This document shows positions 1 to 31,988 of a DNA stretch of 32,454 nucleotides, piece by piece (positions within the stretch are counted from its first letter, which is position 1; every line of letters begins with the position of its first letter). The position numbers were made by a program, and so were the translations under genes. The stretch is from an uncultured Bacteroidia bacterium (lineage in GTDB: Bacteria; Bacteroidota; Bacteroidia; Bacteroidales; UBA932): positions 1-32,454 of the forward strand of contig CACYWN010000029.1 in assembly GCA_902778105.1 (NCBI GenBank). Reading direction: 5' to 3'. The notes under the pieces were generated by a model. It was not told the DNA's origin, did no database searches, and worked only from the letters and a program-made list of their open reading frames with translations.

Positions 1-52
1 CGGAACGGAGTCCTCCGGGAGGGTACTCCCTTCCTCCCTCACTCCATCATAC

Positions 53-101
53 AAAAAAAGAGGATGACCTTAAGTCAATCTGACTTTTTGGTCACCCTCT
101 T
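53..101 (-). terminator. Rho-independent terminator of the lipoprotein gene
   Basis: Arms at 58-69 and 90-101 pair over 12 bp. The single A/C mismatch on the plus strand becomes a U-G wobble in minus-strand RNA, which fixes the direction. A second stem (72-77 with 81-86, 3-nt loop) stacks inside. Minus-strand RNA then runs into seven U (A7 at 53-59). It lies 47 bp past the lipoprotein stop. Positions 1-52 hold no gene I can support. Confidence 0.85.
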
Positions 102-147
102 GATGAAAAGCTATAAACAAAGGCGAAATAGAGTTCGCAAATCAGTT

Positions 148-11022: not shown

Positions 11023-11153
11023 AAATATGTGCAGAAACAGTCGATTTGCACATATTTGGTTAACTTTGAATGAAAAATGTGTAGAAAGGGCCTTTTTACA
11101 CACATTTTGACAGAAAACGACGAAATCTGTGTGGAATCGGCCATTCTGCACAT
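11023..11153. repeat. Three related palindromes at about 50-bp spacing upstream of the DapE-like gene
   Basis: Three similar inverted repeats lie at 11023-11057, 11074-11108 and 11123-11153. Unit 1 has perfect 11-bp arms (AAATATGTGCA with TGCACATATTT). Unit 2 centres on AATGTGTAGAAAGG with CCTTTTTACACACATT. Unit 3 centres on GTGTGGAAT with ATTCTGCACA. Common pattern: TGTGyrGAAw, short GC-rich centre, wTTyTrCACA. TAACTTTG at 11061-11068 resembles a -7 box between units 1 and 2. They fill the space between asd and the next operon, so they could be operator sites, RNA hairpins, or a small palindromic repeat array. Confidence 0.7.
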
Positions 11154-11167
11154 TAATTGGGGGCCAT

Positions 11168-12286
11168 ATGGATTTTCTATTCTTCCATGAACTGTTGAGC
11201 ATCGATTCCACTTCAGGCAAGGAGCGGAAGGTGGCCGAATGGCTGGCGGAGCGCCTGCCGGGGATGTTCCCCGAGGCGAACCGGCCCGTCCTCCGGGTCG
11301 ACGAGGTCGGCGACGGCACTCTGAACCTCCTCCTCACCTGGGGCTCTCCCCGCATTGTTTTCTGCAGCCACCTCGACACCGTTCCGCCGTATATCAAGCC
11401 GGAGTTCCCGGAGGGGGTATTCCTCTCCGAACCGTCGCTCCGCGACCCCTCCCATCAGAGATGGGCCCCTCCCTCTTATGCGGCCGAGGGTGGCCACAGG
11501 TTCGGAGCGGAACACCCCCTCCGCGACACCCTCATCAAGGGCCGGGGAAGCTGCGACGCGAAGGGGCAGGTGTTTGCGCTGGTGACAGCGTGCCAGCGGC
11601 TGGCGGAGGAAGGAAAGACGGACTTCGGGCTGCTGCTGCTCGCGGGCGAGGAAACCGGATCGTGGGGCGCCAAGGCGTTCGCGAAGACGGACTTCCGGGC
11701 CCCGTACCTGGTCGTGGGCGAGCCGACGGAGAACCGGATGGTGAGCGCATCCAAGGGGACCAAGTCGTTCGACCTCAAGTTCACCGGCGAGGCCTTCCAT
11801 TCGGGCTATCCGCAATACGGCGTAAGCGCCGTGGATCTGTTTGTCGATTTCGTGAACAAGCTGAAAGCGAAGGACTTCGGCCTGGATCCCGTGCTGGGTG
11901 AAACGACCTGGAACATCGGCCTGGTGCACAGCGACAACCCGCAGAACATCCTGTCGCCGGAGCTCACCTGCCGGATCTATTTCCGGACGACCTTCGTCTC
12001 GGACGAGGCCGTGTGCAAGTGGATGGCGAGCCTGGGGCCGGAAGCACGGATTACCGTCACCCCCCGCGGCGGCGATACGCCGGCGACGTACTGGACCGTC
12101 GAAGGGCTGCCGGCGGGGCCCGTGGCCTTCGGCAGCGACGCGCCGCACCTCAAGAACTTCACGCACAAGGCCATCTGCGGGCCGGGCAGCATCACCGTCG
12201 CGCACCGAGACGACGAGCATGTGCTTGTCGCCGAGCTGGAGAAGGCCGTGGAGCAGTATTTGGAGATTTACCAATCCGTACAATAG
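11168..12286 (+). CDS. M20 family metallopeptidase, DapE/ArgE-like, with in-frame repeat insertion
   Basis: This 372-aa dinuclear-zinc amidohydrolase shows all expected ligands: His68 and Asp70 in SHLDTVPP, Asp130 in GRGSCDAKGQ, the GluGlu pair near 161-162 in LLAGEETGS, VVGEPTE, and a late His in VAHRDDEHV. The likely substrate is N-succinyl-LL-diaminopimelate (DapE), because dapD, dapB and dapA are nearby; an acetylornithine or succinylornithine deacetylase (ArgE) is the main alternative and sequence alone does not decide. Residues about 81-119 come from a 113-bp palindromic repeat. The His-to-Asp ligand distance is 62 residues here against about 33 in Haemophilus DapE, as expected for an inserted loop. 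The ATG at 11168 starts MDFLFFHELLSIDS. It leads an operon with DUF6440, dapB and a phosphatase gene (10-bp and 9-bp gaps). Confidence 0.85.
   Translation: MDFLFFHELLSIDSTSGKERKVAEWLAERLPGMFPEANRPVLRVDEVGDGTLNLLLTWGSPRIVFCSHLDTVPPYIKPEFPEGVFLSEPSLRDPSHQRWAPPSYAAEGGHRFGAEHPLRDTLIKGRGSCDAKGQVFALVTACQRLAEEGKTDFGLLLLAGEETGSWGAKAFAKTDFRAPYLVVGEPTENRMVSASKGTKSFDLKFTGEAFHSGYPQYGVSAVDLFVDFVNKLKAKDFGLDPVLGETTWNIGLVHSDNPQNILSPELTCRIYFRTTFVSDEAVCKWMASLGPEARITVTPRGGDTPATYWTVEGLPAGPVAFGSDAPHLKNFTHKAICGPGSITVAHRDDEHVLVAELEKAVEQYLEIYQSVQ
11410..11522 (+). repeat. Nested palindromic element, copy 1, in frame in the DapE-like gene
   Basis: Arms 11410-11432 and 11500-11522 pair at 21 of 23 positions. The core between them contains hairpins GTCGC/GCGAC (loop TCC), CCCATC/GATGGG, and CCTCCCTC/GAGGGTGG around TTATGCGGCC. 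The core is shared with copies at 20835-20968, 23407-23524 and 31857-31970, while the arms are not. It has no stop in the host frame and is in the same orientation as the gene. Confidence 0.9.
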
Positions 12287-19035: not shown

Positions 19036-19980
19036 TCAAAGGTCGCGGAAACTTGCGCAACAGGTGCTTACAAGCCGGGCGGGCCCGGTCAGATACACGT
19101 CGGTGAACGTCTGATCCGCCCCGGCCGTAAAATCCACCGAGAGCCAGTCCTGCCGGGCACGGAGGCGGACAGATTCCTTCGCTTCGCTCGGAATGACAGC
19201 GGCGGCGTAAGCCGCTATGGCACTCGCAGTCAAGCCCGTGCCGCAGGCGAGGGTTTCGCCTTCGACTCCCTTCTCGAAGGTGCGGACATGGAGGCCGTCC
19301 GGAGCCACATGGACAAAGTTCACGTTCGTGCCGACAGGCGCGAAGGCCGGGTTCCAGCGGAGGGCTTTGCCTTCCTGGTCGACGTCCACCTTCTCCACGT
19401 CATCCACGAACTTCACGAAATGGCGTGTCCCGGTGTTCAGGAAGTACCCGCCCAGCATGGGCGTAATGCCATGGACGTCAATCATTTTGATGCGGACTTC
19501 CCAAAGGTCGGCTGGTGAGCCTGTCGAACCACCGGACCGCTGCAGGATTTCGCCCGTGTGGAGGCCGTCGGGGGCACGGAACAGATACTCCGCAGGTCCT
19601 TCGACAAGTTCAGGAACCTGCTCCGTGCCCGGTCCCTGAGCCTGTCGAAGGGTCGGGCGATAAGTGGGCTTGATGCCCAGGTAATCGGCAAAGGCCACGA
19701 TGCAGCGCCCGCCGTTCCCGCACATCATTCCGCCGGAGCCGTCAGGGTTATAGAACTCCATGGTGAAATCCACATCCGGTCCCTGTGGTTCGACAAGTTC
19801 ACTAACCGGTCCCTGAGCCTGTCGAAGGGCCGGTCCCAGGATCATCAGCCCGTCGGTCTTGAATTCCTTGCACAGCGCTTCGATGCGCGCCACCTCCCGG
19901 TATTCCGACACATCCCCTTCGCGGCCGTCGATGACCACGAAATCGTTTCCGGCACCGGAGAACTTATACAATTTTTCCAC
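19036..19980 (-). CDS. dapF: Diaminopimelate epimerase with several in-frame repeat insertions
   Basis: About 314 aa from the proposed GTG at 19980 (VEKLYKFSGAGNDFVVIDG). It converts LL- to meso-diaminopimelate. The two catalytic cysteines are in MMCGNGGRC (near 88) and ETLACGTGLTASA (near 247), and NTGTRHFVKF fits the usual His block. No ATG lies near the natural N-terminus; the only ATG, 123 bp upstream, would add an unrelated basic stretch, so the start is uncertain. The protein is some 40-50 residues longer than usual, accounted for by repeat-derived segments: LRQAQGPVSELVEPQGP (about 48-67), LRQAQGPGTEQVPELVEGP (about 108-128), GGSTGSP (about 148-155) and VIPSEAKES (about 261-270). All keep the frame and avoid catalytic motifs. 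It lies 23 bp or more after the aminotransferase stop. Confidence 0.88.
   Translation of the reverse strand: MEKLYKFSGAGNDFVVIDGREGDVSEYREVARIEALCKEFKTDGLMILGPALRQAQGPVSELVEPQGPDVDFTMEFYNPDGSGGMMCGNGGRCIVAFADYLGIKPTYRPTLRQAQGPGTEQVPELVEGPAEYLFRAPDGLHTGEILQRSGGSTGSPADLWEVRIKMIDVHGITPMLGGYFLNTGTRHFVKFVDDVEKVDVDQEGKALRWNPAFAPVGTNVNFVHVAPDGLHVRTFEKGVEGETLACGTGLTASAIAAYAAAVIPSEAKESVRLRARQDWLSVDFTAGADQTFTDVYLTGPARLVSTCCASFRDL
19171..19197 (-). repeat. 27-bp palindromic repeat (VIPSEAKES type) in dapF
   Basis: ATTCC/GGAAT arms around TTCGCTTCGCTC. On the coding strand it is read VIPSEAKES. Same 27-bp unit at 23905, 26215, 26447 and 28710. Confidence 0.9.
19514..19656. repeat. TCGACAGGCTCAGGG-type repeats in dapF: inverted pair plus half copy
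   Basis: At 19595-19656 an inverted pair (CCTTCGACAAGTTCAGG ... CCTGAGCCTGTCGAAGG) encloses about 20 bp. A half copy (GAGCCTGTCGAACC) lies at 19514-19537. Both are in frame in dapF. Confidence 0.85.
19778..19837. repeat. TCGACAGGCTCAGGG-type inverted pair in dapF, second site
   Basis: TTCGACAAGTTCA (19789-19801) faces TGAGCCTGTCGAA (19814-19826), flanked by GGTCCC. Encodes LRQAQGPVSELVEPQGP on the minus strand. Confidence 0.85.
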
Positions 19981-20125: not shown

Positions 20126-21388
20126 TTACGCCCGAATGCGGTTCCCGATAATCTCCCCCAGCAGTTTCAGCCCCGGTTCCATCTTCTCCTCCGCGATGAA
20201 GGAGAAATTGAGCCGCATCGTATTGCGGTGGCTGCCGTCCAGGAAGAAGAAGGAGCCGGCGACGTAAGCGACGCCCTTCGAGAGGGCCTCGTCGTACATG
20301 TCGATGGTATCGACCCCTTCCGGGAGCGTCAGGAAGAGAAACAGTCCACCTTCGGGGTAGGTCCAGGTCACCCCTTCCGGCATGTACTTTTCCAACAGGC
20401 TCACCATCAGGTCCCGACGGCGGCGGTACTCGGCCTTCGTCTTCACGAGATTCGCATCCAGGGCGCCGCTCGTCAGGAACTCCGTGGCCAAATACTGGTC
20501 GAACACCGGCGGGCACAGGTCCAGCGCCTGCTTGCAGATGTAGATCTGCTCCAACAACACCTCCGGACCGATGATCCAGCCCAGCCGGAATCCCGGCGCG
20601 AAAATCTTCGAGAAACTCCCCAGGTGCAGCGTCCGCTCCGGCGCCAGCGAATAGAGGGTCGGCACCTCCTCCCCACTGTACCGCAGCTCCCTGTACGGAC
20701 TGTCCTCCACGATGACCACGTCCAGTTCCCGTGCCAACGCCACGATCTCCTTCCGCTGCTCCAGCGTCATCGTCTCCCCGGAAGGATTGTTGAAATCGGG
20801 AATCACGTAGATAAACTTGATGGGACTCGAATCAGGCCGGGAGGGTGTTGTTCCGGAAACCTGTTGCCACCCTCGGCCACATAAGAGGGAGGGGCCCGAA
20901 GACGGCGCAGGCCGGCTTTGAGAGGGGTCGTCGGAGACGACGGTTTCCGGAGCAATACCCTTCCGGCCCCATATCGGCCTTACATCGGCCCTGTACGCCT
21001 TGAACGACTGCAGCGCACCGAGATACGTAGGTTCGGTGGTCAGGATGACATCACCCGGGTCGCAGAGGATGCGGGTACAGACATCGATGCCCTGCTGCGA
21101 GGAGGTCGTGATCTGGACACGGGAGACCGGCACGCCATAGCGGGCGGCGATGGCTTCCCGAAGCTCCGGAACACCCTGGGTAGCACCATATTGCAACGCC
21201 TTGGTGCCATACTTGTCCAGCACCAGCCCCGGAAGCCGTCGCAGGTCCTCCACGGGGAAGGTCACGGCCGCCGGATACCCGCCCGCGAACGAGCAGATGG
21301 CACTGAGGTCCACCTTCCGGAAGATTTCCCGGACGGGGCTCCGCATGAAGGAGGGGACGTCTGCTGAAAAAAGTCTGTTGAACTCCAT
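20126..21388 (-). CDS. PLP aminotransferase (ARO8/LysN-like), candidate DapC, with repeat insertion
   Basis: This 420-aa fold-type I aminotransferase shows FAGGYPAAVTFP, LQYGATQGVPELREAIA, TEPTYLGALQSFKA, VIPDFNNPSGE, VEDSPYRELRY, and the PLP lysine near 260 in GSFSKIFAPGFRLGWI. This is the 2-aminoadipate / aromatic aminotransferase type, not the DapL type. It sits directly upstream of dapF, and the genome has dapD, so N-succinyl-LL-2-amino-6-oxopimelate transamination (DapC role) is a reasonable inference; a general amino-acid transaminase is the alternative. Residues about 140-184 (GRKGIAPETVVSDDPSQSRP...SGTTPSRPD) come from a 134-bp palindromic element placed in a loop before VIPDFNNPSG. 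Confidence 0.85.
   Translation of the reverse strand: MEFNRLFSADVPSFMRSPVREIFRKVDLSAICSFAGGYPAAVTFPVEDLRRLPGLVLDKYGTKALQYGATQGVPELREAIAARYGVPVSRVQITTSSQQGIDVCTRILCDPGDVILTTEPTYLGALQSFKAYRADVRPIWGRKGIAPETVVSDDPSQSRPAPSSGPSLLCGRGWQQVSGTTPSRPDSSPIKFIYVIPDFNNPSGETMTLEQRKEIVALARELDVVIVEDSPYRELRYSGEEVPTLYSLAPERTLHLGSFSKIFAPGFRLGWIIGPEVLLEQIYICKQALDLCPPVFDQYLATEFLTSGALDANLVKTKAEYRRRRDLMVSLLEKYMPEGVTWTYPEGGLFLFLTLPEGVDTIDMYDEALSKGVAYVAGSFFFLDGSHRNTMRLNFSFIAEEKMEPGLKLLGEIIGNRIRA
20835..20968 (-). repeat. Nested palindromic element, copy 2, in frame in the aminotransferase gene
   Basis: Arms 20835-20861 and 20942-20968 pair at 24 of 27 positions. On the minus strand the core has GTCGTC/GACGAC (loop TCC), an AAGCCGGC/GCCGTCTT stem and the CCCCTCCCTCTTATG...GAGGGTGG hairpin. 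Core matches copies 1 and 4; arms are private. Same orientation as the host gene. Confidence 0.9.
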
Positions 21389-22959: not shown

Positions 22960-24231
22960 CTATTTAATTCGCTGATTATCAGCCAATTGGGCGCCAACAT
23001 GCTCAACCTCTGGATGGAGTTCAATGCCGTATTTTTTCCGGATGGTGTCAATGACGCGCTGCTCCAGGGCGATGATTTCCTGCGGCGTGGCGTCGCCGGT
23101 GGCGTTCACAATCACGAGGGGTTGGTTGGGGTACACCTGCGCGCCGCCCAGCCGCATCCCCTTGAATCCGCACTGGTCGATCATCCACGCGGCGGGGACC
23201 TTCACCCGGTCACCGACCTCATAATGAGGAACTTCGCAGTCCGGTCCGTTCTCTTCCCGCGCTGTGGCGACAATCCGCTCGAAATGCTCCCGGCTGATTA
23301 CCGGATTGCAGAAGAAACTCCCTGCGCTCCCGACCTTTGCCGGATCCGGCAGCTTCTTTTCCCGGATGGCGATGATCGTTTCCCGGATGATTTGCGGGGT
23401 CAGGGAGGAAGGTATGGGGCCTGAAACCCTCCGGAGCTGCGCCCCTCCGTCCCTCCCAACCTGCGGTTGGGCCCCTCCCTCTAATATGCCGAGGGTGGCA
23501 TAGGTTTCAGGGCCCATACCTTCCCCCTCAAGAATAACGCCTCTATTTTCCAACGCCTTACGAACACCGCCATAGTCCAGGACGGGCGTGGGGGCAAGGG
23601 AAAGGCGGAAGGTGACGGCCATGATGATGTAGCGGCCTTTCCAGACAGTCTTGAAGTTCGAGGTGCGGTAGCCGTAGCCGCAGTCGGCGGCGGGGATGTC
23701 CACGAAGCGGCGCTCCCGCAGGTCGAAAGCGTGGACCGTCTCGATGATGTCCTTCGCCTCCACGCCATAGGCACCGATATTCTGCACGGCGCTGGCTCCC
23801 ACCTCGCCGGGAATCAGCGACAGGTTCTCCGGGCCCCAGAGGCCCTCCTGCGCCGCCCAGGCGCAGAAATCGTCGAAGACGATTCCGGCGGGGATGCGGA
23901 CGAGAGATTCCTTCGCTTCGCTCGGAATGACAAAAGCGCCGTCATTCCGCCCCCCGTACTCCTTGTCATTCCGAACCCCGGACTCCCTGTCATCCCGAAC
24001 CCCGGAGGGGTGAAGGAATCTGTTCCCCATATGCAACACCGTTCCAGGGAAATCCCTGGTGAAGAGCAGGTTCGAACCGCCGCCCATCACGAAGAGGGGC
24101 TGCGGAAGGGCGTCGAAGTCCAGCGTGAGCAGGTCCTCCGGCTCCGTAACCTCCACATACAGACGACAGGACACCTTCATGCCGAAGGTGTTCCGCCGCG
24201 AAAGGTCATAGGCTTCGTGACGCGTTATCAT
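22960..24231 (-). CDS. murB: UDP-N-acetylenolpyruvoylglucosamine reductase with two in-frame insertions
   Basis: This 423-aa FAD enzyme reduces the MurA product to UDP-MurNAc. Family motifs are intact: VMGGGSNLLFTRDF, LIPGEVGASAVQNIGAYG, CGYGYRTSNFK, the proton-donor Ser block GSAGSFFCNPV near 300, and HPEVEHVG near the C-terminus (type I MurB). E. coli MurB has about 342 residues; the excess of about 80 is explained by two repeat-derived segments. One, about 71-109, encodes three 8-residue units (GVRDDRES, GVRNDKEY, GGRNDGAF) and then VIPSEAKES. The other, about 236-275, comes from a nested palindromic element. Both fall between conserved motifs. Confidence 0.94.
   Translation of the reverse strand: MITRHEAYDLSRRNTFGMKVSCRLYVEVTEPEDLLTLDFDALPQPLFVMGGGSNLLFTRDFPGTVLHMGNRFLHPSGVRDDRESGVRNDKEYGGRNDGAFVIPSEAKESLVRIPAGIVFDDFCAWAAQEGLWGPENLSLIPGEVGASAVQNIGAYGVEAKDIIETVHAFDLRERRFVDIPAADCGYGYRTSNFKTVWKGRYIIMAVTFRLSLAPTPVLDYGGVRKALENRGVILEGEGMGPETYATLGILEGGAQPQVGRDGGAQLRRVSGPIPSSLTPQIIRETIIAIREKKLPDPAKVGSAGSFFCNPVISREHFERIVATAREENGPDCEVPHYEVGDRVKVPAAWMIDQCGFKGMRLGGAQVYPNQPLVIVNATGDATPQEIIALEQRVIDTIRKKYGIELHPEVEHVGAQLADNQRIK
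23407..23524 (+). repeat. Nested palindromic element, copy 3, in murB, opposite orientation to the gene
   Basis: Arms 23407-23428 and 23503-23524 pair at 21 of 22 positions (GGTTTCAGGGCCCATACC on the right arm). The core contains CCCAACC/GGTTGGG and CCTCCCTCTAATATGCCGAG, then GGTGGC. The core reads on the plus strand while murB is on the minus strand, yet murB stays open. Confidence 0.9.
23905..24021 (-). repeat. 27-bp VIPSEAKES repeat plus 24-bp tandem units in murB
   Basis: The 27-bp unit is at 23905-23931. At 23941-24012 three units of about 24 bp each begin GTCATTCCG or GTCATCCCG. AGATTCCTTC at the left end and GAAGGAATCT at the right end form outer arms. The 117-bp block is exactly 39 codons. 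Confidence 0.85.
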
Positions 24232-26213: not shown

Positions 26214-26287
26214 GAGATTCCTTCGCTTCGCTCGGAATGACATTCCGCTGTCATCCCGAGGAGGTCAGAGACCGACGAAGGGATCTC
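26214..26287 (-). repeat. 27-bp repeat within a larger palindrome in the aspS leader
   Basis: The 27-bp unit is at 26215-26241. GAGATTCCTTCG (26214-26225) and CGAAGGGATCTC (26276-26287) form outer arms with one mismatch, enclosing TGTCATCCCGAG. It lies in the untranslated leader of aspS, the only non-coding copy in the window. Confidence 0.85.
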
Positions 26288-26365: not shown

Positions 26366-27325
26366 ATGGAAGTACGCGCGAAGAAGGCCCTAGGCCAGCA
26401 TTTCCTCACCGACCAGCGCATCGCGCAGGCCATCGTCGATGCCCTTGTCATTCCGAGCGGAGCGAAGGAATCTGTATTGGAAGTCGGTCCCGGCATGGGG
26501 GTATTGACTCAATATCTCCTCCCCCGCGAGGACATCGACCTGAAGCTCGTGGAAATCGACGGGGAATCGGTGGACTACCTCCTCACCCACTTTCCGGGCA
26601 TGCAGGGACGGCTTCTGCAGGCCGATTTCCTGAACCTCCGGCTGGAGAAAATCTTCCCGGGAAAGTTCGCCGTCATCGGCAATTTCCCGTACAACATCTC
26701 TTCGCAGATCTTCTTCAAGATCCTCGATTACCGGGAGCAGATTCCCGAGGTCGTGTGCATGATCCAGAAGGAAGTGGCCGAGCGCATCGCCGAGAAGCCC
26801 GGGTCCAAGACCTACGGCATCCTCTCCGTGCTGCTGCAGGCCTGGTACGACATCGAGTACCTCTTCGGCGTGGGCCCCGGCTGCTTCGCCCCGCCGCCCA
26901 AGGTCGATTCCGCCGTCATCCGGCTCACCCGGAACAGCCGCACGTCGCTCGGCTGCGATGAAAGCCTGTTCAAGGCCGTCGTGAAAACCGCCTTCGGCCA
27001 GCGTCGCAAGACGCTCCGCAACTCACTGAAACCCATCATCTTGGAAAAGGCCGACCGGCTCGGCTGGGATATGGCCGAGTTCATGGGCAATGCCTCCGAC
27101 GAGGCTTCTGAGGCCCCCGAATTGGAACTCATGCTCCAGGAGGACGACGGGCGCATCGACCGGAAAAAAGGGAAGAAGCGCAAAGGTGCCGACAGTCCCG
27201 CGCCCGCCATCTGCACAGTGCAAGCAACATCTCTGGCCGCCTTCCTCGCCGACCCAGTCTTCGAGCGCCGTCCCGAAACCCTCTCCGTGGAGGATTTTGT
27301 CGCCCTGACGAATTTTCTCGCCTAA
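26366..27325 (+). CDS. rsmA: 16S rRNA dimethyladenosine transferase with two unusual segments
   Basis: This 319-aa SAM-dependent enzyme dimethylates the two adjacent adenines near the 3' end of 16S rRNA (KsgA). Motifs: KKALGQHFL, VLEVGPGMGVLTQYL, LVEIDGESV, the catalytic NFPYNISSQIFF, PGCFAPPPKVDSAVIRL and FGQRRKTLRNSL. A 27-bp repeat encodes VIPSGAKES just before the SAM-binding VLEVGPG. Near the C-terminus, about 45-50 extra residues, rich in charge (EDDGRIDRKKGKKRKGA), separate NASDEAS from the expected RPETLSVEDFVALTN block; this piece does not match the repeat families seen here. E. coli KsgA is 273 aa. Confidence 0.93.
   Translation: MEVRAKKALGQHFLTDQRIAQAIVDALVIPSGAKESVLEVGPGMGVLTQYLLPREDIDLKLVEIDGESVDYLLTHFPGMQGRLLQADFLNLRLEKIFPGKFAVIGNFPYNISSQIFFKILDYREQIPEVVCMIQKEVAERIAEKPGSKTYGILSVLLQAWYDIEYLFGVGPGCFAPPPKVDSAVIRLTRNSRTSLGCDESLFKAVVKTAFGQRRKTLRNSLKPIILEKADRLGWDMAEFMGNASDEASEAPELELMLQEDDGRIDRKKGKKRKGADSPAPAICTVQATSLAAFLADPVFERRPETLSVEDFVALTNFLA
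26447..26473 (+). repeat. 27-bp palindromic repeat (VIPSGAKES) in rsmA
   Basis: Same unit as in dapF and murB with one base difference giving Gly for Glu. Nine codons in frame, immediately before motif I of the methyltransferase. Confidence 0.9.
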
Positions 27326-27964: not shown

Positions 27965-28291
27965 CAAGCCGGGCACCGAGCCCCTCGCCTTCCTCGTCAT
28001 CTGCAGCAGCGTTCCGGAAGACAAGGTGGTCGACATCGACCTGGGTTTCGCCGGACAAAGCCTCCTCCTGAAGGCCGTGGAGATGGGCCTCGGCGGCATT
28101 TTTTCCGGAAGCAGGCCATCCGGGAAAGCCTGGCGCTCCCGCTGGATCCCATCGCCGTCATCGCCATCGGCAAACCAGCCGAGAGCATCTACCTCCTCCC
28201 GGCGGGAGGAGAAAATCCCGACCTTCGGTACTACCGAAAGGACGGGGTTCACTTCGTACCCAAGCTGAGGCCGGATACGCTTCTTATTTAA
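27965..28291 (+). pseudogene. 3' remnant of a nitroreductase-family gene, frameshifted
   Basis: From about 27969 the plus strand reads PGTEPLAFLVICSSVPEDK, then VVDIDLGFAGQSLLLKAVEM and GLGGIFSGS. Near 28110 the frame shifts, and the adjoining frame continues QAIRESLALPLDPIAVIAIG, KPAESIYL and YYRKDGVHFVPKLRPDTLLI, stopping at 28289-28291. GLGG...AIRESL.LP...V.AIGKPAE...YYRD..VH.VPKR is the second half of an FMN nitroreductase family of Bacteroidales. The N-terminal FMN-binding half is absent. The 3' end overlaps the stop of the transglutaminase gene by 3 bp or more, convergently. Confidence 0.75.
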
Positions 28292-31121
28292 GCTTCGCGA
28301 CCGTTCCCGCGAGCTGTTCGCCCAGGCCGATGGTATAGCCTTCGGAGAAGAAGAAGACGCGGCCAAAGGAATCCGCCAGGATGACCAGCGGTAAGCGGGA
28401 AGGCTGGCCTGCAGCACTCTCCGGGCCCGCTTTCATGCCTTTCTCGATCCCCTTCTGAACGGCGCCGTCCTTGTCCAAGCCCAGGACGATGGTGCCGGGC
28501 AGGGTACCGTAGCGGCCCTCGGACATCTCTACCTGAAGACGGTGCAGGGCCGATTCCGCAGAGCAAACCAGGACAATCGGACGGCCCCAGGCCTCGAGCT
28601 GCGTCCGGGCGGCCGCGAGGTCGCGGAGGACGTGGTTCGTGGGTTCCTTGCCGGGCTCGAGGAGGGCGAGGGCGTAGTAGCCGCGGCCGCAGACGGAAAG
28701 GAGGCTCGCAGATTCCTCCGTTTCGCTCGGAATGACAGAATTGTCACTTCGACCAAGACCCGAAGGGGCGCGCGGAGAAGTCTCCAACACGTCCCCGTCC
28801 TCGGTCAGGGTCGTGGCGACGGGGCGGATCCGGGTTTCCGCATCAAAGGAGCCGATCACCGGGACACCCTCCCCGCCGGAGCGGAGGACCAGGTCGACGA
28901 CGGTCTCCCTTCCGGCCGTGACGTCAAAGAAAACGACCGAAACGGGAACGGCACCATTGGAGAGGCGGTTGCCAGAGACGAGCATGTAACGCCCCTCCTC
29001 CATCGGGAAACCCTCGCGGAACACATGGGCCCAGTCCACACCGCCGCCCATGTCCACGTCGCCTTCGTCGAACTCCAGCAGGTGGGGACGGCCGTTCTCG
29101 ATCCTGGAAAGGGAGAAATGGCTGTAATACTTGGGGTTGTCCACGATTCTGTTCGGGGTGTAGGTGAGCTTGAGCGTGCCCTTCGGGGCGGCCGCGGCCG
29201 GGCCGGCGCCGTCAAAGTCCACGTCCAGCCAGTCGCCGCCGTCCTGGCGGTACTGGATCTTGCCGTTCACGGGGTTCTTCCGCGCATCGATGCCCAGCGT
29301 CCGGGCCAGGGCCACAAAGGCGATGCCCCGGGAACGCGGGGTGGCCAGCCGGCTCTTCGCGACACCGATCGGAGACATCGGAATGTCCCAGGCCTTGGGA
29401 TCGTCGATCACGATCAGGTACTGGCGGACGACCTGCACCAGCTTCTGGGGATCGGACACATACTGCCGCTGGTCCGGTGTGAGATACCCCTTGAAAAAGG
29501 CCTTGTACGGGCTCAGGAACTCGTTTTCCACCCGGGGGCCGATGACCGCATCCCGGTCGTCGTAACTGTCCATGAGGTTTTCCAGGGTGATGTCGTGGAA
29601 GTCCTTCCGGCTCAGGGACAGGAACAGGGTCTCCACGAGCTCATGGTCCTCGGCCTGGGCCATGAAGGCCTCGATGGTGCGCCAATTGCCGCGGGACCAC
29701 TCGATGGGCGTCGCCATGTGATGGCCGTAGCCATGCTCTTTCACGAAGGCCAGGGCCTCGTCGTGTGTCGGGAACGTGGCCTCATAGGCACGCCGGAGGG
29801 AGTCCTCGTAGGCGAACCGGCGGTCGTTCTCCGCCCGCTGCTCCGGCGTCACGGCCGGCATCTTCACGTTTTCAGGCGGCGGAACGATGTCGAGGGAATC
29901 CGTATCGGACCTGCCCTTCGACAGGCTCAGGGACCCCTCCGACAAGCTTAGGGACCCCTCCGACAGGCTCAGGGACCCCTCCGACAGGCTCAGGGACCGG
30001 TCCAGGACGACCGTCACTTCCGTATCCTTTCCGAAAGAGCATTTTGCGTAGCCATAGGCCCCGTCCTTGGAGGCCCAGATGAGAAGGTCCCCGAGACCGG
30101 AGGAGAGGAAGGTGCGGCCGTCGGCGTCCGTATACTTGGACACGGCCGGGTAGAATTCCGCGTAATTGTAGATGCAGAAGTCCACGCGGGCGCCCTCCAC
30201 GGGCTTCCCTTCGCCATCGACCACCCGGAAATCCGCCCGGGCGGTGGTGGCATAATGGTCGATGAGGTTCACCTCCGTGTAATTCGGGCTCTCCAGCACG
30301 ACCTCCTCCGGACCGTCGTAGCGGCCGAAGACCTTGGTATGCATGAGCATCGCGCGGGAGGCGGGGGCATTGAACCAGCCCAGGTCCAGCACCGGCTCGG
30401 GCTCGCAGGCGCCGATGAAATGCCACTGTCCGTCGGCCCAGGCTTCCACCCAGGCATGATTGTCGTCGGTATGCGCCCAGCGCGGGGTATACACCTGCCG
30501 GGCGGGAATGCCCACGGACCGCAGTGCGGCTACGCAGAAGGTCGATTCCTCCCCGCATCGCCCCAGCGCATTCCGCACCGAGGCGAGCGGTGAACTCGTC
30601 CGCGCGTCGGAGGGCTGGTAGGTCATCTTCTCGTGACACCAGTGGTTCACTTCCAGGATGGCTTCCGCCATCGACAGGCCCTGCACACGGGGCTTCAGCT
30701 CCCGGTAGAACACCACGCGGGAGGTGTCCAGATTCTCATTGTTGACACGGACAGGCAGCACGAAGTGCCTGAATTCCCGCTCCGGCACCTTCCACCCCAT
30801 CTCTTCCCGGATGCGGAACGACGCCCGCACCTGGTCCAGATAATACTGCGCGGGGTAGTCCACCACGTCCGCAAGGGGCATGTAGGCATACAGGAACCTC
30901 AGCGCCTCCTGCTCGGCAAGGGTGGCATCGCCATCATCCATGAACGGCGCAAGCGCCCCGCCGTTCGCCGCTTTCCGGGCGTCGTAATCCCGTTGTACCT
31001 GTTCGCGGTACGCTCTATTCGTGAGAAAATGCACTTCCCGGACGCCGGTGCAGCCCGCCAGCATCGCGAGAATCAGTCCCGCCACGGAGGCCTGGAGAAT
31101 CGCCTTTTGTAAACACCTCAT
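28284..31121 (-). CDS. Large transglutaminase-like lipoprotein with redoxin-like C-terminus
   Basis: About 945 aa from the ATG at 31121; a TTG two codons upstream is unlikely. A lipoprotein signal ends LAMLAGC. Transglutaminase-like core (about 80-260): Cys near 188 in LGRCGEESTFCVAALRSVGI, His near 221 in DDNHAWVEAW, followed by WHFIGACEPEP for the acidic partner. Next comes a transthyretin/CarboxypepD-like module (about 305-372: RVVDGEGKPVEGARVDFCIY). After a repeat-encoded linker (373-402), an alpha-rich region and beta modules follow; the end (SRLPLVILADSFGRVFFFSEGYTIGLGEQL) looks redoxin/thioredoxin-like but lacks a CxxC. It is probably a periplasmic or surface peptidase or cross-link enzyme; substrate unknown. 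Two further repeats (VIPSETEES and SPRAPSGLGRS) occur near residues 776-803. Confidence 0.85.
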   Translation of the reverse strand: MRCLQKAILQASVAGLILAMLAGCTGVREVHFLTNRAYREQVQRDYDARKAANGGALAPFMDDGDATLAEQEALRFLYAYMPLADVVDYPAQYYLDQVRASFRIREEMGWKVPEREFRHFVLPVRVNNENLDTSRVVFYRELKPRVQGLSMAEAILEVNHWCHEKMTYQPSDARTSSPLASVRNALGRCGEESTFCVAALRSVGIPARQVYTPRWAHTDDNHAWVEAWADGQWHFIGACEPEPVLDLGWFNAPASRAMLMHTKVFGRYDGPEEVVLESPNYTEVNLIDHYATTARADFRVVDGEGKPVEGARVDFCIYNYAEFYPAVSKYTDADGRTFLSSGLGDLLIWASKDGAYGYAKCSFGKDTEVTVVLDRSLSLSEGSLSLSEGSLSLSEGSLSLSKGRSDTDSLDIVPPPENVKMPAVTPEQRAENDRRFAYEDSLRRAYEATFPTHDEALAFVKEHGYGHHMATPIEWSRGNWRTIEAFMAQAEDHELVETLFLSLSRKDFHDITLENLMDSYDDRDAVIGPRVENEFLSPYKAFFKGYLTPDQRQYVSDPQKLVQVVRQYLIVIDDPKAWDIPMSPIGVAKSRLATPRSRGIAFVALARTLGIDARKNPVNGKIQYRQDGGDWLDVDFDGAGPAAAAPKGTLKLTYTPNRIVDNPKYYSHFSLSRIENGRPHLLEFDEGDVDMGGGVDWAHVFREGFPMEEGRYMLVSGNRLSNGAVPVSVVFFDVTAGRETVVDLVLRSGGEGVPVIGSFDAETRIRPVATTLTEDGDVLETSPRAPSGLGRSDNSVIPSETEESASLLSVCGRGYYALALLEPGKEPTNHVLRDLAAARTQLEAWGRPIVLVCSAESALHRLQVEMSEGRYGTLPGTIVLGLDKDGAVQKGIEKGMKAGPESAAGQPSRLPLVILADSFGRVFFFSEGYTIGLGEQLAGTVAKLK
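28710..28790 (-). repeat. 27-bp VIPSETEES repeat next to a GTCACTTCGACC-type repeat
   Basis: The 27-bp unit is at 28710-28736 with three base changes. Directly after it, 28742-28790 has GTCACTTCGACC ... GGAGAAGTCTCC, a different short palindrome-like unit translated as SPRAPSGLGRSDN. Both are in frame in the transglutaminase gene. Confidence 0.75.
29914..30002 (-). repeat. Four tandem 21-bp repeats encoding SLSLSEG
   Basis: Four near-identical 21-bp units (CCGACAGGCTCAGGGACC type; the first has CCTTCGAC, the second CAAGCTTAGGG). Each is 7 codons, giving SLSLSEG three times and then SLSLSKG. It is the same unit family as the inverted pairs in dapF, here in head-to-tail array and in the opposite coding sense. 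Confidence 0.92.
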
Positions 31122-31170
31122 AATCAACGATATCCATCAAGTCAATCCGCAGGCCACGTAAATAAAGAAG

Positions 31171-31847: not shown

Positions 31848-31856
31848 GCAGGGAAA

Positions 31857-31970
31857 GGGGGACATCCCCAAACCGTCGCTCCGCGACCCTTCCCAAAGCC
31901 GGCTTCCGCCGTCTTCGGGCCCCTCCCTCTTATGCAGCCGAGGGTGGCCACAGGTTTGGGGATGTCCCCC
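31857..31970 (+). repeat. Nested palindromic element, copy 4, intergenic
   Basis: Arms 31857-31874 and 31953-31970 pair perfectly over 18 bp (GTTTGGGGATGTCCCCC on the right). The core has GTCGC/GCGAC (loop TCC), a CCC-AAG-CGGC stem with matching GCCG-CTT-GGG, and the CCTCCCTC...GAGGGTGG hairpin. It starts 9 bp past the barrel gene stop and may end its transcript. Confidence 0.92.
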
Positions 31971-31988
31971 TGCCCGGACCTCAGTACC

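Follow-up and report, generated by a model that had tools for sequence, protein, structure and literature searches.

The window analysed here, a contig of 32,454 nucleotides from an uncultured Bacteroidia bacterium, carries four copies of a palindromic element that belongs to a large and hitherto apparently undescribed repeat family in gut and rumen Bacteroidales. The element is ~110-175 bp in size and consists of a core of ~60-110 nt, with three hairpins and crossing pairs, within a ~27-bp stem. At orthologous loci of related genomes, the core is found in both orientations between the inverted arms. We propose, at roughly even odds, that the element is a mobile palindromic repeat with a folding core, that its arms are partly copies of host sequence, and that template switching maintains the arms and flips the core. 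We file the element among the small palindromic mobile repeats, as one with flipping cores and locus-specific arms.

Results

Four copies in the window and insertion within genes

The initial annotation had described four copies with self-complementary arms around a shared core, three of which lie in frame in enzymes as Rickettsia palindromic elements (RPEs) do. All four were found where it had placed them and share the core, and copies 1-3 reside in M20 peptidase, aminotransferase and MurB ORFs. Copy 1 (11406..11526; covariance-model match E 1.2e-25) has its G-rich strand on the minus strand, and its arms (11406-11433 and 11499-11526; 28 nt, 89% paired according to the repeat finder) enclose a core at 11434-11498. 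It lies in frame within a Peptidase_M20 ORF (11129-12286, plus strand, 385 aa; Pfam). Copy 2 (20835..20968; E 5.9e-20), the G-rich strand of which is the plus strand, has arms of 27 nt at 20835-20861/20942-20968 (89% paired, repeat finder) and is located in frame within an aminotransferase class I/II ORF (20126-21388, minus strand, 420 aa; Pfam). Copy 3 (23404..23527; E 6.9e-13), with arms of 25 nt at 23404-23428/23503-23527 (92% paired, repeat finder), occupies an in-frame position within a MurB ORF (22960-24231, minus strand, 423 aa; Pfam), and its G-rich strand, the minus strand, is the sense strand of MurB. Copy 4 (31856..31971; G-rich strand minus; E 4.2e-20) has arms at 31856-31874 and 31953-31971 that form 19 of 19 pairs (100%), and is positioned in a spacer, outside long ORFs. 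The core orientation is plus for copies 1, 3 and 4 and minus for copy 2.

Among 172 copies of the family, 90 lie within open frames of at least 200 codons, some of which may be shadow ORFs. Across species, the variable loops of the aminotransferase, MurB and the peptidase contain copies either way round, other repeats or nothing, and these loops of the three genes are hotspots of tolerated insertion. The M20 peptidase loop that harbors copy 1 holds apparently unrelated short in-frame repeats in other species (L146 and L150). The cores are stop-free in 4.26 of six frames compared with 3.61 for shuffles; for whole copies located outside ORFs, the values are 2.22 and 1.69, respectively, with an approximate dinucleotide shuffle in both cases. 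Because both the cores and the whole copies outside ORFs exceed the shuffles, the openness of the frames does not merely result from location in genes.

Distribution of the family

A BLAST search with one core yielded further copies throughout the genome, and a degenerate core pattern matched at least 114 stretches in GTDB genomes. Among the matches listed, the records with the core pattern belong to Bacteroidales, Bacteroidia and one Prevotellaceae, many of them from ruminants, and include Candidatus Cryptobacteroides caccocaballi. The covariance-model search of the genome, which the initial annotation had suggested as a check, returned many further copies, with 32 matches in the window's own genome at E<=0.01. 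Counting the own genome, the model matched 102 of 121 sampled genomes of the genus (E<=0.001; no more than 30 candidates scored in each) and 5 of the 247 examined across the order (14 candidates scored in each). In a sample of the phylum, for which the filters were strict and 12 candidates were scored in each genome, one genome among 296 gave a match, namely the own genome. These searches demonstrate a dispersed repeat family. The element has apparently been amplified recently in G593 (L378-L387), a genome from a different family of the order, where its copies share their arms and partly their outer context. No exact match to the core pattern was detected in viral contigs, and plasmid and phage collections displayed no similarity to one 79-nt query. 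A search that covered mostly non-subscription literature found no published description of the repeat family.

Anatomy and covariation of the fold

On the G-rich strand, the element is arranged in the order of 5' arm (~27 nt), P4, UAA, GAGGG, AGGGG, P3, AGGG, P2 and 3' arm. The P4 hairpin is made of UGUGGCC A CCCUC GGCCGCA, the loop of which, CCCUC, can pair with the GAGGG located downstream. P3 is a variable hairpin. In copy 1, all helices of the core are read on the minus strand. P4 (TGCGGCC/GGCCACA; 11479..11498) is helix 3 of the counted structure, and the crossing pair of CCCTC at 11471-11475 with GAGGG at 11486-11490 (11471..11490), a possible pseudoknot, is helix 4. P3 (CCCATC/GATGGG; 11451..11465), the length and sequence of which vary across copies, and P2 (GTCGC/GCGAC; 11434..11446) are helices 5 and 6, respectively. 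The crossing pairs may form a pseudoknot with P4, or the two may be alternative hairpins.

The covariance model was built from an alignment of 60 copies out of 118 extracted. The counted structure comprises 49 pairs (26 in the arms and 23 in the core) and was drawn from copy 1, which favors the structure of copy 1 somewhat. Standard pairs are formed in 92.6% of the cells of the 60 copies, compared with 69.2% for shuffles; 35 pairs show changes in both partners, compared with 28.8; and 725 cells exhibit a two-sided change, compared with 218. None of 500 shuffles reached any of these three values. Further pair types amount to 120 versus 113 in shuffles, and 15 of the 500 shuffles reached 120. 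When the partners were slid by 1-3 columns, at most 50.5% of the cells were paired and at most 231 cells were changed on two sides. Two-sided change was observed in 26 of 26 arm pairs and in 9 of 23 core pairs. All cells of the crossing helix are paired, and one of its five pairs varies, with U-A replaced by A-U or C-G in 3 of 60 sequences; diverged copies contain the variants CCCCC/GGGGG, CCCGT/ACGGG and CCCGC/GCGGG. These counts demonstrate covariation of the fold. Further copies and covariation were both found, whereas the initial annotation had named the lack of either as an outcome that would speak against it.

At gathering scores, no Rfam family was detected in the whole window, and only a tRNA and a SAM-II riboswitch, both away from the copies, were detected at six loci. 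This result agrees with the initial annotation, which had known of no matching named family. The best sub-threshold Rfam match of copy 1, mir-642, scored 25 bits against a cut-off of 90 and was dismissed as implausible for the identity of this copy.

Strand bias of the wobble pairs

Which strand adopts the fold? Among the arm mismatches of 172 distinct copies, 143 are G·U as read on the G-rich strand and only 78 as read on the opposite one, with 114 others, a bias with a p value of 1.5e-5 calculated over phylogenetically non-independent copies. An earlier count with 133 copies gave 78:28, with 64 others. The ratio is 40:22 where the G-rich strand is antisense (the C-rich strand being sense), 29:18 where the G-rich strand is the sense strand, 63:33 outside ORFs and 11:5 in short ORFs, and it reaches 39:9 in P3. 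Because this bias is independent of gene orientation, the molecule that folds seems to be the G-rich strand, either as RNA or as ssDNA; folding of the host mRNA was rejected, given that the bias takes no account of the orientation of the gene.

The fold of the G-rich strand appears to be selected, as judged from patterns in the compared copies. The better evidence for such selection is core covariation and the strand bias of wobble pairs rather than arm complementarity, which on its own is no proof of a selected fold because template switching likewise keeps inverted arms matched. The initial annotation had interpreted the compensatory changes of the arms and inner hairpins as pointing to a selected fold or to an insertion process; for a selected fold there is evidence in the core and the wobble bias, whereas the arm pairing is insufficient alone.

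Flipped and differing cores at orthologous loci

Orthology was called on both flanks, which gave 137 pairs in 30 locus clusters. The core lies in the same orientation in 74 pairs and in the opposite orientation in 63, and both orientations are present in 18 of the 30 clusters. By flank identity, the flipped share is 1/6 at 93-99%, 9/17 at 88-93%, 16/26 at 83-88%, 14/40 at 78-83% and 23/48 below 78%. Some flips among the 63 may instead reflect independent insertions into one hotspot. In a safer set of 44 pairs, the arms of which are alike at 16/20 or better, 20 pairs are flipped, nine with a core identity of at least 0.9 and 11 with a core identity below 0.85. The cleanest flip, L018/L289, combines near-identical arms with a core that is inverted with one difference, between flanks that are ~92% alike. 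In MurB, L207 and L209 have opposite cores within near-identical arms, and the frame is open in both. Opposite core orientations at orthologous loci are demonstrated by these pairs; they were missed by the initial annotation because it had no relatives for comparison.

The pairs with near-identical arms also demonstrate different cores within such arms. The core identity is below 0.85 in 17 of these 44 pairs, and the hairpin type can differ, as it does in L005/L290 and L088/L281. Near-identical cores are found at separate loci of one genome (core identity of 1.0 for L282/L281). When genomes were assigned by record names and the best of several paralogues was taken, the paralogue core was closer than the orthologue core in 77 of 116 tests, and in 10 of 25 at flank identities of at least 88%; because the choice of the best of several favors this outcome, we treat it as suggestive. 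New cores seem to come from copies at other places in the genome.

Could the inversions be artefacts of assembly, given that a core flanked by perfect inverted arms cannot be oriented with short k-mers? The named records are mostly metagenome assemblies, and the arms are perfect or nearly so. However, k-mers longer than arms of ~27-30 nt should, by reasoning, resolve the orientation. Moreover, the flipped MurB orthologues each retain their open frame, and the core is also a different one in 11 of the 20 flips with near-identical arms. We consider an artefact highly unlikely.

Origin, change and loss of the arms

Comparison of filled with empty sites was clearest at two loci. At L237, the empty site GAAGAAATAAT|ATGAAAGT is common to four relatives, and a segment beyond the right arm of the filled site repeats the left host flank in inverted, diverged form. 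At L243, the empty site is again present in four relatives, as CTGGGAAGA|TTAAAG in three and CTGGAAGGA|TTAAAG in one; the filled site retains the host flank as the outer left arm, and its outer right arm is the inverted copy of this flank. Inverted host copies are demonstrated by these two loci and are clear only there, the pattern being less clear at copy 1, L235 and L246 and weak at L240. Over 172 copies, the inverted similarity beyond the arms has a mean of 6.94, compared with 6.25 (sd 0.11) in 40 permutations. Nine copies score at least 11 beyond their arms, compared with 2.7 expected, and two of the nine (L085 and L283) look like arms that were called too short. No direct target duplication is evident between filled and empty sites at L237 and L243; L284 contains a possible 5-nt direct repeat. 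The initial annotation had offered an insertion process that builds the arms as its alternative, and part of the arms indeed looks copied, as at L237 and L243.

The inner arms are not derived from the host at these two sites, since they are missing from the empty sites, and simple copying of the target was rejected as the origin of the arms for this reason. The inner arms keep a weak common pattern, GGAGGGTRTnnTCCnGAAACC (read by eye), and are common to the apparently recent copies in G593. Slow drift alone is doubtful as the mode of change of the arms, given two-sided block changes at low divergence, although two of the pairs concerned may be separate insertions. L275/L280 display 10 two-sided changes and 1 one-sided change in the arms, and L016/L051 display 9 and 1; in both pairs, the flanks diverge by 9-12% and can be aligned up to a point 20 nt or less from the element. 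L079/L282 and L079/L277, the flank alignment of which ends up to 78 nt short, may be separate insertions. Such block changes suit replacement of the whole element as well as template switching. The close pairs L034/L054/L071 and L013/L104 carry one-sided arm changes only, which argues that the arms are not instantly homogenised. Given these one-sided changes and the two-sided blocks, both gradual compensation and block replacement seem to occur.

Some relatives have apparently lost the element. Compared with L281, L333 lacks the sequence between GAGGGTG of the arm and GAGGGTG of the core, and L339 exhibits a similar loss at AGGGT relative to L279; a short palindrome remains in L338, L327, L222 and L341. 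From these alignments, the scars in several relatives seem to be products of deletion. L222, L327 and L338 were set aside as empty sites, deletion scars being more likely, and L323/L324 and L328 were left out of the junction reading due to poor alignment across the junction. Two core alignments, of L016/L051 and L046/L051, were excluded because they had picked up the wrong L051 copy of the two.

The behavior of the arms bears on an alternative reading, in which a functional RNA or cis-regulatory structure is selected at each locus and the arms co-evolve by ordinary compensatory mutation. Such a reading would accommodate the strong covariation, crossing pairs included, the wobble bias toward one strand and the one-sided intermediates in close pairs. 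However, the bias is independent of the gene strand, the orientation of the core is about random at orthologous loci, and some close relatives are without copies or apparently have scars. Furthermore, arms that change in two-sided blocks leave few intermediates. Selection for a function at each locus is therefore improbable in our estimate.

Transposases and neighboring repeats

A Y1 transposase (Y1_Tnp) is present in 7 of the 121 genus genomes and absent from the own genome, and an IS1182 transposase is present in 15 of the 121. Because the element occurs in 102 of these genomes, neither transposase tracks it, and RAYT/Y1 and IS1182 were rejected as drivers on the basis of this distribution, although structures flank many IS1182 genes. 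The two families thus provide no candidate for a more active scheme, in which a recombinase or transposase would recognize the folded core and the inner stem (GAAACC/GGTTTC), insert cores into existing stems either way round and thereby flip and replace them. Several observations would follow naturally from this scheme, including the cores of different hairpin type within near-identical arms, the near-identical cores that one genome carries at separate loci and an orientation that looks random by ~10% flank divergence, and the selected fold hints at a partner. Nonetheless, a passive process suffices for pure inversion, and we regard an active cassette as possible but unlikely. Similarly unlikely, in our estimate, is the related idea that the core cassette moves between resident palindromic stems, either way round, with the hairpin tip as its target, and that the first insertion copies the host flank inverted. 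To our knowledge, mobility by core exchange into existing hairpin tips has not been described for any system.

The association with IS1182 genes could also indicate that the element is a miniature offshoot of the IS1182 family, mobilised by its DDE transposase. At least one related structure was found at 9 of 12 IS1182 loci examined, and at 6 of the 12 the transposase gene is flanked on both sides by oppositely oriented structures. All eight loci with a transposase like that of the own genome carry at least one structure, and the two copies of the own genome were confirmed as IS1182 by NCBIfam. However, the own IS copies share outer ends (GAGGsTGACyCAAAAGT-like) that lie outside the structures and are not apparent at copy 1, and the transposase was found in only 15 of the 121 genomes, though draft genomes can lack IS. 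We find this derivation quite unlikely.

Further repeats occur in the window and at related loci. The first 107 nucleotides of the window (1-107) start within a diverged version of the element's structure and continue into an IS1182-like outer end as on contig C32 (L265), which suggests that contigs C32 and C29 join at this overlap. A GAGGsTGAC-type hairpin recurs near the structure at L266 (1310-1353), L265 (1940-1977), L391 and L392, both at the ends of IS1182 and, in G542, next to solo copies. A second short palindromic repeat (AGATTCCTTCGCTTCGCTCGGAATGACA) is present in five copies, at 19169-19203, 23905-23933, 26215-26242, 26445-26473 and 28709-28737, one of which is apparently in frame near the start of ORF 26366-27325, presumably an rRNA adenine dimethyltransferase gene. 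A third repeat (CCCTTCGACAGGCTCAGGGACC) is located at 19515-19836, within a DAP epimerase ORF, and at 29907-30007, where it forms a 21-bp tandem array in a transglutaminase-like ORF (28284-31127).

Discussion

We propose that the element is a non-autonomous mobile palindromic repeat, the core of which would fold on the G-rich strand as ssDNA or RNA. The fold would probably be needed for spreading. The inner arm would arrive with the element and later change with compensation on both sides, and the outer arm, at some loci at least, would be host flank copied inverted to the other side. Polymerase template switching between the arms would maintain their match, lengthen them into the host sequence and invert the core, and the cores of copies elsewhere in the genome would serve as donors. 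Since the core is free of stops in most frames, copies within genes would survive in tolerant loops.

Template switching economically explains the matched arms, the inverted host copies and the flips without a special enzyme. According to excerpts of the published studies, it homogenises arms and inverts spacers in yeast genes (PMC8604942) and creates and maintains RNA stems (PMC8794818). Two of its features are found in our data: inversion of the spacer between conserved arms in 9 pairs (arms alike at 16/20 or better and core identity of at least 0.9) and extension of an arm by an inverted copy of adjacent sequence at L237 and L243. Template switching does not account for the spread to new loci or for the covarying crossing pairs, and it does not easily explain core replacement. 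In the excerpts of both studies, it is a mutation process that acts on ordinary short repeats, also in coding DNA (PMC8604942, PMC8794818), whereas here it would operate on dispersed family members that share a conserved, folded core. The inverted yeast spacers in the excerpted text are only a few bp (PMC8604942), in contrast to ~60 nt or more here. Any individual event, whether template switch or transposition, would be a reconstruction from compared sequences.

Known repeat systems resemble the element in part. RPEs, as described in excerpts of two papers, are ~150-bp palindromic elements with many in-frame copies in unrelated metabolic genes (PMC10969869, PMC3733652). The present element is similar to them, as far as these excerpts go, in size, palindromy and in-frame insertion in protein genes, the last of which is found in copies 1-3. 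It differs, in a comparison by description only, in its phylum, locus-specific arms, two core orientations and crossing pairs. On the same description-only basis, the element is RPE-like rather than an established RPE. MITEs, in the excerpted account, are small, non-autonomous and dispersed, and are intragenic too (PMC10969869), all of which applies to the present element. Unlike MITEs, it has locus-specific arms rather than a fixed terminal inverted repeat, and the common outer ends of IS1182 lie outside the structures. As to direct target duplication, none is evident at the two clean loci, and L284 has a possible 5-nt repeat. REP/BIME sequences associated with RAYT (Y1) are palindromic and have a strand-biased fold and possibly an ssDNA intermediate. 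The present element is larger than these and branched, and Y1 is found in only 7 of the 121 genomes. Invertons of gut bacteria, again in excerpts, are DNA between inverted repeats that is found in both orientations (PMC11892184), as is the core described here. In contrast to invertons, the present element is a dispersed repeat family, the arms of which differ by locus, and no invertase was identified.

Two-sided compensation of arms is the usual evidence of a functional RNA fold, and in this family much of it may stem from the replication of palindromes. The copies in G593 would suit the study of fresh insertions. With up to ~30 natural replicates per genome, the family is suited to separating the effects of selection from those of replication. 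It further provides naturally occurring in-frame insertions in core enzymes, present both ways round at one and the same site, and an opening for identifying the agent that spreads a structured repeat whose distribution follows neither transposase family tested.
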